Assembly: GCA_903875575.1 (NCBI GenBank)
Contig: CAIQWJ010000091.1
Span: forward strand, 1-64,000
Source: an uncultured Acidobacteriia bacterium
GTDB lineage: Bacteria > Acidobacteriota > Terriglobia > Bryobacterales > Bryobacteraceae
Direction of reading: 5' to 3'
Length of the DNA: 64,000 nucleotides
The translations under genes and the position numbers were made by a program. Shown in pieces: positions 58,641-59,840 of the stretch. How positions within the stretch are numbered: position 1 is the first letter of the stretch; each line of letters starts with the position of its first letter. The notes under the pieces are model-generated. The model was not told where the DNA came from, made no database searches, and worked only from the letters and a program-made list of their open reading frames with translations.

Positions 58641-59348
58641 TTACCAGTCGAGGCACATCGGAAGCCGGTGCCTAACGGATACCTCGGCCAGTTCTGAAAA
58701 GACGCTGAGCGCGAACTTCGCCCCGACCTCCATAGGAGAGTCATGCTCGACTCCGGCGTTTCGCGAACGATGCAGTAATTCAGTATCCATTTGCCAGGTG
58801 CGCGCGTTCAACTCCTGGAGTTGCTTGAGCAGGCGTTCGCTCGAACCGATGCAAACTTCCGTTCCTCCCACATCCTCCGCCTTAAAGACGAATCCAGGAT
58901 TGCACGGAAGCCAGAGCCCGACATCGAACAGATCGGAGTAACGGCTGGCCAGACCCGGAACTGAAGCAAGTCGGTACGCAGGATCCGTCGTCCAGTCATC
59001 AATGTGCTCAATCGGTCGGCAAAGGTCCCTGTGCTCGTTATACGCTGCCCACAAGATGAGATCGGAGTAGCAGTCCCATGTAGGTTTGTCTGTGAAATAT
59101 GGTGCCGTGGGGCCCTCGTCCCAATCCAGCGGTGGCACCCCATGATCCGCCAACGAAGCCGATAAGCCGTCGCGCCAGGCAATGACGATAGGACGGATCT
59201 GGTCAGGGTCTCGAATGGCGTCGGAGGGATCGTTCTGACGCACGACTTGAACGGGGATACCCATTTCATGAGCCAACTTTTGGCTTACGAGTTCCCAGTC
59301 TCCAGCGTAGTAGCGCGTTAACGAGCCGACATAGATGTCCAGTCCCAC
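58641..59348 (-). CDS. hypothetical protein with MGLDIYVGSLTRYYAGDWE N-terminus
   Basis: A 235-residue soluble protein of no family I recognise. The GTG at 59348 gives MGLDIYVGSLTRYYAGDWE, which has the look of a genuine conserved N-terminus. Aromatic and acidic residues are frequent (DCYSDLILWAAYNEHRDL, FDVGLWLPCNPGFVF), and there is no signal peptide or membrane segment. The frame remains open to 59615, but that upstream part has no conserved appearance. It is convergent with the SDR gene (42-base gap). Its upstream region is the structured element at 59549-59773. Confidence 0.72.
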   Translation of the reverse strand: MGLDIYVGSLTRYYAGDWELVSQKLAHEMGIPVQVVRQNDPSDAIRDPDQIRPIVIAWRDGLSASLADHGVPPLDWDEGPTAPYFTDKPTWDCYSDLILWAAYNEHRDLCRPIEHIDDWTTDPAYRLASVPGLASRYSDLFDVGLWLPCNPGFVFKAEDVGGTEVCIGSSERLLKQLQELNARTWQMDTELLHRSRNAGVEHDSPMEVGAKFALSVFSELAEVSVRHRLPMCLDW

Positions 59349-59548
59349 GGCAAATACGATCCCATGTATTCCATTGCCGATTATCCCTGTGGCAACTCTG
59401 TGACCGCAATAGCACCATTCCCTAATGATCTGCCGCGCGTTCCCTCGTTGACTCCCACATCCGGCACCCCGCCCCTCTGTAAACTTCAGAGCTATTCCAG
59501 CCGAATATCCGACTTCTACCCCGGAGTATGCAGAGACGCAGTTTGCGC

Positions 59549-59773
59549 GGAGACCTTGCTTCGGCAAGGAGGACTCCAAAAATGCAAAACCCCGCTTCAC
59601 GGGCGGGGTCTGCATGCTTTCTATGGGGTAGAAAGGAGGTGTTCTTTAATGCGCCTTCTTACGCTGGCAGCGTTCCTGAATCCGTTCAGGAAACGACGGT
59701 TCAAAATGGAATTTCGATTCTACATCGAATTCTAAATGAACCAATGGGGGCGGACATTGCGTTGTCCGCTCCC
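59549..59773 (+). ncRNA. candidate structured RNA with six consecutive hairpins and an internal small ORF
   Basis: Successive stems on the plus strand: H1 CCTTGC-TTCG-GCAAGG (59554-59569), extended by GGAG/CTCC (59549-52/59574-77). H2 ACCCCGC/GCGGGGT (59589-95/59603-09) with outer ATGCA/TGCAT (59582-86/59611-15). H3 CTTTCTA/TAGAAAG (59617-23/59629-35). H4 TTCCTGAA-TCCG-TTCAGGAA (59673-59692). H5 GAATT-CGAT/ATCG-AATTC with one bulged T (59709-59732). H6 GGG-GCGGACA/TGTCCGC-CCC (59746-59773). H1 has a UUCG loop only on the plus strand, and a T-rich stretch follows H6 on the plus strand, both favouring this orientation. H3 pairs with the first part of the small ORF's SD. It sits between two minus-strand genes. 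Confidence 0.55.
59649..59735 (+). CDS. 28-codon small ORF with a perfect extended Shine-Dalgarno
   Basis: Encodes MRLLTLAAFLNPFRKRR followed by FKMEFRFYIEF: a short hydrophobic start, a basic middle and six Phe in 28 residues. TAGAAAGGAGGTG (59629-59641) is complementary over 13 bases to a 16S 3' tail of the Bacillus type (CACCTCCTTTCTA), with GGAGG nine bases before the ATG. Hairpin H3 sequesters the TAGAAAG part, so translation could be gated by structure. H4 and H5 lie inside the coding sequence. A leader peptide, small membrane-active peptide or chance frame are all possible. No plus-strand gene follows within range of classical attenuation. Confidence 0.45.
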   Translation: MRLLTLAAFLNPFRKRRFKMEFRFYIEF

Positions 59774-59785
59774 ACTGTTTTGAAT
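59746..59785 (+). terminator. intrinsic terminator-like hairpin
   Basis: An 11-bp stem including one G-T pair (GGG-G-GCGGACA with TGTCCGC-T-CCC, loop TTGCGT) is followed by CACTGTTTTGAATTT. It would end the plus-strand transcript of the small ORF and, read in reverse, could also serve the minus-strand purB gene, whose stop is at 59841. Confidence 0.6.
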
Positions 59786-59840
59786 TTATCACAAACGCCG
59801 CGCCCACGCGCCCATTATTTCGCCTGCGCGGAATCCGGCT

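Follow-up and report, generated by a model that had tools for sequence, protein, structure and literature searches.

A primary toxin transcript that cannot be translated is a major hallmark of type I toxin-antitoxin loci (PMC6733600). In the aapA/IsoA systems, the Shine-Dalgarno (SD) sequence is masked by an upstream anti-SD, by an anti-SD internal to the open reading frame (ORF) and by a long-distance interaction (PMC6733600). According to a paper from 2025, type I systems were known only in Proteobacteria, Firmicutes and Tenericutes, to which that paper adds Cyanobacteria, and this narrow range of phyla is thought to be due to searches that relied on similarity to known loci (PMC12390103). 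Our literature search, with most subscription papers outside its reach, found no report of a type I toxin-antitoxin system from Acidobacteriota, and where a survey of toxin-antitoxin genes from marine environments deals with Acidobacteriota, it gives numbers of orphan toxins and antitoxins and no element of the kind presented here.

We analysed a 64,000-nucleotide stretch of DNA (the window), in which a preliminary description had drawn attention to a structured intergenic element with a small ORF. The anatomy of this element comes closest to that of aapA/IsoA and hok/Sok, with no detectable sequence relation to known toxins; the resemblance to type I systems is one on paper. The element probably represents a so far undescribed module of Bryobacteraceae that resembles type I toxin-antitoxin systems and of which the window holds one copy.

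RESULTS

Extent and parts of the element

The preliminary description reported a set of stems at 59549-59773 on the plus strand, between two minus-strand genes. Both flanking genes are indeed oriented opposite to the element, and the stems fold as described: the fold of these bases has an energy of -99.5 kcal/mol (z -7.3), far more stable than shuffled sequences, none of which (0/200) was equally stable. When the 5' end was included, z was -8.7, and 59515-59533 paired with 59610-59619 and 59624-59632. The stems stand, but the main SD-masking arm lies 5' of the interval given for them, and the element starts at about 59503 (+). A GGAG/CTCC hairpin at 59549-59577 (+) contains an inner UUCG-capped stem found in the window copy only.

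The SD of the window copy, TAGAAAGGAGGTG (59629-59641, +), is extended: the claimed match to 16S rRNA was borne out as an exact 13-nt complement of the 16S tail ..GGATCACCTCCTTTCTA. Since neither the window's own assembly nor the same-genus assemblies searched contained a 16S gene, the tail was read in seven other relatives: three belong to the family, another three to the rest of the order and one to a different part of the class. The small ORF MRLLTLAAFLNPFRKRRFKMEFRFYIEF likewise stays open from its ATG at 59649 to its stop at 59735 (+), spanning 28 codons, and encodes a diverged member of the peptide family described below. The proposed terminator-like 3' end did not hold: the 3' hairpin of the mRNA (59745-59774, present on both strands) has no U run on the plus strand, and what resembles a terminator is a GC hairpin further upstream, read on the minus strand.

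The layout had been called unlike that of any known family, in agreement with the family libraries. No hit at the gathering score was obtained when the window and a typical copy were compared with Rfam 15, including Acido-1 and Acido-Lenti-1, and a tRNA/tmRNA search gave no match. On the minus strand, a 324-aa ORF (58641-59615) extends into the element in its longest reading; it had no Pfam match and no homologue among the loci fetched, and translation of it probably begins at a more downstream start.

A patchy multicopy family of Bryobacteraceae

The preliminary description overlooked that the element is multicopy. A DNA search of its own genome found 13 copies besides the one in the window, at 73-84% identity, and a covariance model recovered the same 14 copies, two of which sit at contig ends. 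Across the order, covariance model R3 detected more than 110 copies in 33 of 257 genomes, representing 15 genera, with strong conservation of the element. The distribution is patchy, with 0-14 copies per genome (at most 12 in the filtered R3 search), and all carriers in the order belong, going by named relatives, to a single family, Bryobacteraceae. Named contigs with the element are Bryobacterales, Bryobacteraceae and Terriglobia MAGs. A class-wide sample yielded one match outside the family, and a phylum-wide sample contained no carrier besides the window's own genome. Comparison of these copies establishes a conserved unit of about 290 nt, in which the shared parts follow the order promoter-like start, TTCTACTTCGG, GGAG/CTCC hairpin, TGCAAAACCCCGC..GCGGGGTCTGCA, SD, ORF of 25-28 codons, long 3' hairpin and short tail.

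Candidates from wider searches were rejected. A pattern search of named genomes returned terminator-like hairpins in unrelated bacteria, the best of which scored 26.6 bits (E 0.0075) with the covariance model, against 56-126 bits for the family. Two viral contigs matched the pattern and had no covariance-model match, the plasmid matches were 60-nt hairpin matches in Klebsiella, and a phage search gave no match.

The genes next to the element change from copy to copy (COX1, FtsK, Nramp, RecO, FAA hydrolase, DUF3738 and purB, in both orientations), which leaves the element with no constant target. A small ORF with a strong SD, surrounded by alternative stems, is what a leader peptide, an attenuator or a ribosome-sensing cis-regulator of a neighbouring gene would look like, and a ribosome-sensing role had been suggested for the window copy. 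Because no downstream gene is common to the copies, and with the two flanking genes in the window on the opposite strand, we reject this explanation as highly improbable.

At the purB locus, the element is present in the window genome and absent from all 16 same-genus relatives (0/16), so the window copy probably arrived there recently. Several other arrangements were observed. One contig of the same genome (C72) has two copies, C72a and C72b, both with an AAA_14/DUF4143 ATPase gene behind them. This looks like a duplication of the module, after which only C72a has its 5' half. Several genomes have tandem copies separated by a few hundred bases (L019 1234-1921; L040; L068; L203; L197; L201), and a tandem pair in the window's own genome (C28) adjoins an integrase-core (rve) ORF. 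In one genome (G015), two copies (L051 from ~1620 and L064 from ~930) have in common some 60 inserted nt straight after the SD (CTTGGCCAGTG..TTATCCGGGGACAA..); the insertion puts distance between SD and ORF and looks like either an independent small repeat or the mark of an inactivated lineage.

Three covarying pairings around the translation start

Three pairings, referred to here as locks, recur among the copies. The first joins the mRNA 5' end (TTCTACTTCGG) to the sequence immediately 5' of the SD and shows heavy compensatory change; in the window, its 5' arm lies at 59515-59533 (+) and its two 3' arms at 59610-59619 and 59624-59632 (within 59610-59632, +). The second joins the SD to codons 2-4 (hairpin 59633-59660, +), and the third joins the early codons to the 3' tail. 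In a typical copy, all three are closed at once in the MFE structure. Besides the MFE, the first lock is supported by covariation of both its sides and, for the 5'-end arm, by the partner-swap test described below, and the second by covariation of helix 5.

Counted on alignments that were themselves fitted to the structure, two-sided changes occurred at 24 of 30 pairs among 54 copies, with a covariation score of 0.309 compared with 0.153 for shuffled alignments and at most 0.09 for slid partners, and at 27 of 30 pairs among 41 rows from other genera (0.518 compared with 0.184 shuffled). In an alignment-free test, partners were exchanged between copies in 5000 permutations, with phylogeny uncorrected. 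Cognate partners paired better than exchanged ones in both sets for the 5' end with the SD and, equally, for the ORF start with the tail (0/5000 permutations in each case). Three control pairings showed no cognate advantage in the first set. In the second set, the control pairing of 5' end and tail was likewise low (4/5000), and part of the partner-swap signal may for this reason reflect shared ancestry. Covariation between ORF and tail can be read directly from individual copies, such as GATGTTG/CAACATC, GATGCTG/CAGCATC, TTACTGA/TCAGTAA and GTACTGA/TCAGTAC.

The SD had been thought to be masked by a local hairpin, H3. Masking is supported, but its predicted main partner is the mRNA 5' end, and H3, which overlaps the 3' arms of the first lock, is the alternative. 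Since many copies have this alternative too (TCTACGGAGTAGA, TCCACTCGGAGTGGA), the RNA may switch between two states, H3 and the 5'-end lock, while it is being transcribed.

A small peptide under purifying selection

The ORF has 25-28 codons, within the limit of 60 aa for the small protein of a type I system, and its length changes in whole codons, with the SD and start conserved. The median pN/pS of the peptide was 0.37 over 142 moderately diverged pairs, 98% of which had values below 1. By this comparison the peptide is under purifying selection, in line with the earlier view of a self-contained plus-strand unit that combines a structured RNA with a coded peptide. Copies from the genus follow the rough pattern M-x-LLML-hydrophobic-(R/K)x(R/K)R-xxKI(E/D)(I/F)x(L/F), and peptides from other genera, such as MILLLVKFRSVVGRLTALIVWTRKGRR, MLTLWLKIVTMFMTVRLKLTIRKGR and VIHLIIPKGYRLTIKVSPDGFVEITLKP, stand on the same RNA frame.

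Most first-set copies encode a strongly hydrophobic 13-aa segment: its hydrophobicity had a median of 2.84 and was 3.75 in C72a. The window copy scored much lower, at 1.23, and certain distant copies had values of 0.26-0.84; some distant peptides (VIHLIIPKGYRLTIKVSPDGFVEITLKP, MRLQIAIPKGYRLRVRF..) are not hydrophobic. The peptide is presumably membrane-active. Among 21 representative peptides compared with library profiles (Hok, Ldr, Fst, TisB and others), no type I toxin match was found, and no family was recognised in Pfam or NCBIfam. In one of two tandem copies in another genome (G018, contig C8, L068 781-1331), the frame is apparently shifted past the hydrophobic segment (MVFLMLVSILARFRKPNQ..); its peptide frame has decayed and its RNA frame is otherwise intact.

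These data bear on two further explanations. Strong RNA covariation would also be expected of a purely structural non-coding RNA whose ORF is untranslated, possibly the Solibacter-1 motif, a candidate structured RNA for which Solibacter usitatus, of the same order, is the only reported source, and which is listed without an Rfam accession in the table of that paper (Weinberg 2010, PMC2864571). Solibacter-1 might be the same RNA as the element. The pN/pS of 0.37, the whole-codon length changes, the conserved SD and start and the conserved pattern hydrophobic-RKRR-KIEIDL argue strongly for a coding function, and we give a non-coding element very little credence. A selfish or mobile MITE-like repeat of RNA or DNA, with an incidental ORF, would account for the many dispersed copies, the tandem pairs and the insertion at purB that 16 relatives lack. 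However, copies that are only about 73-84% identical within a genome have kept their reading frame and SD, their pairing through compensatory changes, and the promoter and terminator signals on the opposing strand, the peptide is constrained to the same pN/pS, and a non-exhaustive look revealed neither terminal repeats nor a transposase shared by the copies; such a repeat is very unlikely.

Signals for an antisense RNA

The minus strand carries conserved promoter and terminator signals of its own, which the preliminary description had passed over. Within 28 nt past the 3' hairpin, the extended -10 motif TGn?TAnnnT was present on this strand in 40 of 42 copies; the following 28 nt contained it in 2/42, and the sense strand in 0/42. 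In the window it is TGATAAATT (59783-59791, -). In other genera, TAnnnT occurred in 31/35 copies against 5/35 in the control, and a sequence near TATAAT in 21/35 against 1/35. At the opposite end, TTT stands right after the GC hairpin on the antisense strand in 45/49 and 29/38 copies, and on the sense strand in 2/49 and 1/38; the U tract of the antisense terminator is shorter in other genera. In the window this hairpin (59589-59609, both strands) is an mRNA-internal stem on the sense strand and, followed by TTTTGCATTTTT on the minus strand, the predicted antisense terminator. The conserved signals predict an antisense RNA over the ORF and SD. Measured on four copies, it would be 189-192 nt long and span 3' hairpin, ORF and SD; it would have about 190-195 nt in the window (59582-59776, -), where the 3' hairpin of the mRNA would double as its 5' hairpin and the RNA itself is a candidate antitoxin. 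At the position of the sense -10, TAnnnT stands at a set offset in 65% of first-set copies, compared with 0-2% at neighbouring offsets.

The window copy is an atypical member

The window copy retains the 5' lock, the SD, the SD-codon stem, the GC hairpin and the antisense -10 (TGATAAATT). Its ORF-tail pairing is lost (-4.5 kcal/mol, compared with -9 to -13 in most copies), as is its sense -10, a degenerate GAATAT (59503-59508, +) in place of TAnnnT, and its peptide (MRLLTLAAFLNPFRKRR..) has Asn-Pro inside the hydrophobic segment. The hydrophobicity of this peptide is also much lower than that of C72a. The window copy is probably impaired, either decaying or specialised, and the family was thus first met through an atypical member.

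DISCUSSION

Taken together, the multicopy nature of the element, its upstream arm and its minus-strand signals speak for a module of the type I toxin-antitoxin kind. According to the model that we propose, the sense gene would encode a peptide of 25-28 residues, usually hydrophobic and cationic, and the full-length mRNA would be kept untranslatable by the three locks, which join 5' end and pre-SD sequence, SD and codons 2-4, and early codons and 3' tail. A convergent promoter just 3' of the gene would yield the antisense RNA of about 190 nt, covering ORF and SD and ending at the GC hairpin, which would block translation of any opened mRNA or trigger its decay. Upon loss of the antisense RNA or trimming of the mRNA, the SD, with its anti-SD match of up to 13 nt, would be freed and the peptide made. 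What sequence comparison itself shows are the copies, the pairings, the peptide constraint and the antisense -10 and terminator signals; that both strands are transcribed, that the peptide is toxic and that it is repressed and activated in this way is what we infer.

The main rival is a small membrane or signalling peptide with a physiological or stress function, placed under the same sense/antisense control. Purifying selection on the peptide fits this explanation as well, the toxin role being a prediction, and some family members are not hydrophobic. Variable copy number, patchiness, lineage-specific insertion sites and the extreme translation silencing that is predicted suit a toxin better than a housekeeping regulator, and we regard a non-toxin peptide as rather unlikely.

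Returning to the toxin-antitoxin-like module, we tentatively raise the idea that a conserved RNA chassis, made up of the three locks and the antisense RNA, carries several apparently unrelated peptides through Bryobacteraceae (the types hydrophobic-RKRR-KIEIDL, LIVWTRKGRR, WLKIVT..LTIRKGR and PKGYRL..EITLKP share the RNA frame). The toxin might then be an exchangeable cassette, and Acidobacteriota could have in this family their first of type I. In this Bryobacteraceae family, conservation is higher for the RNA control than for the peptide, and the predicted SD masking has been maintained through many compensatory changes. The family was reached via RNA covariation, more than 110 natural variants are open to testing, and the covariance models can be used to seek such modules elsewhere.

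Like MsoT1/MsoA1 of Microcystis, which was also reached by a de novo search, the element lies outside Proteobacteria, Firmicutes and Tenericutes (PMC12390103); it comes from another phylum, and MsoT1/MsoA1 was characterised experimentally, whereas our element was characterised on paper from its sequence. With Fst/RNAI-RNAII (par) it shares convergent overlapping genes, a common structured region and an SD in a stem-loop (PMC8309996), but it has no PXXXGC/APXXXG motif, and its predicted antisense RNA covers the whole ORF and SD. An inert full-length mRNA with 5'/3' fold-back and an antisense RNA, both predicted here, are features of hok/Sok (PMC6733600); unlike in hok/Sok, no overlapping mok-type leader frame was noted, the peptide has no similarity to Hok and it is half the size. 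The aapA/IsoA loci belong to another phylum, and our element has no Rfam, Pfam or NCBIfam match of any kind. The arrangement of the masks also differs, in that the SD region is here masked at long range by the mRNA 5' end, whereas the 3' tail has the early codons, not the SD, as its partner. As in aapA/IsoA of Helicobacter pylori and its relatives, there are several chromosomal copies with a short, in our case usually cationic and hydrophobic, peptide and with, as predicted in our case, a masked SD and an antisense RNA over the gene (PMC6733600).
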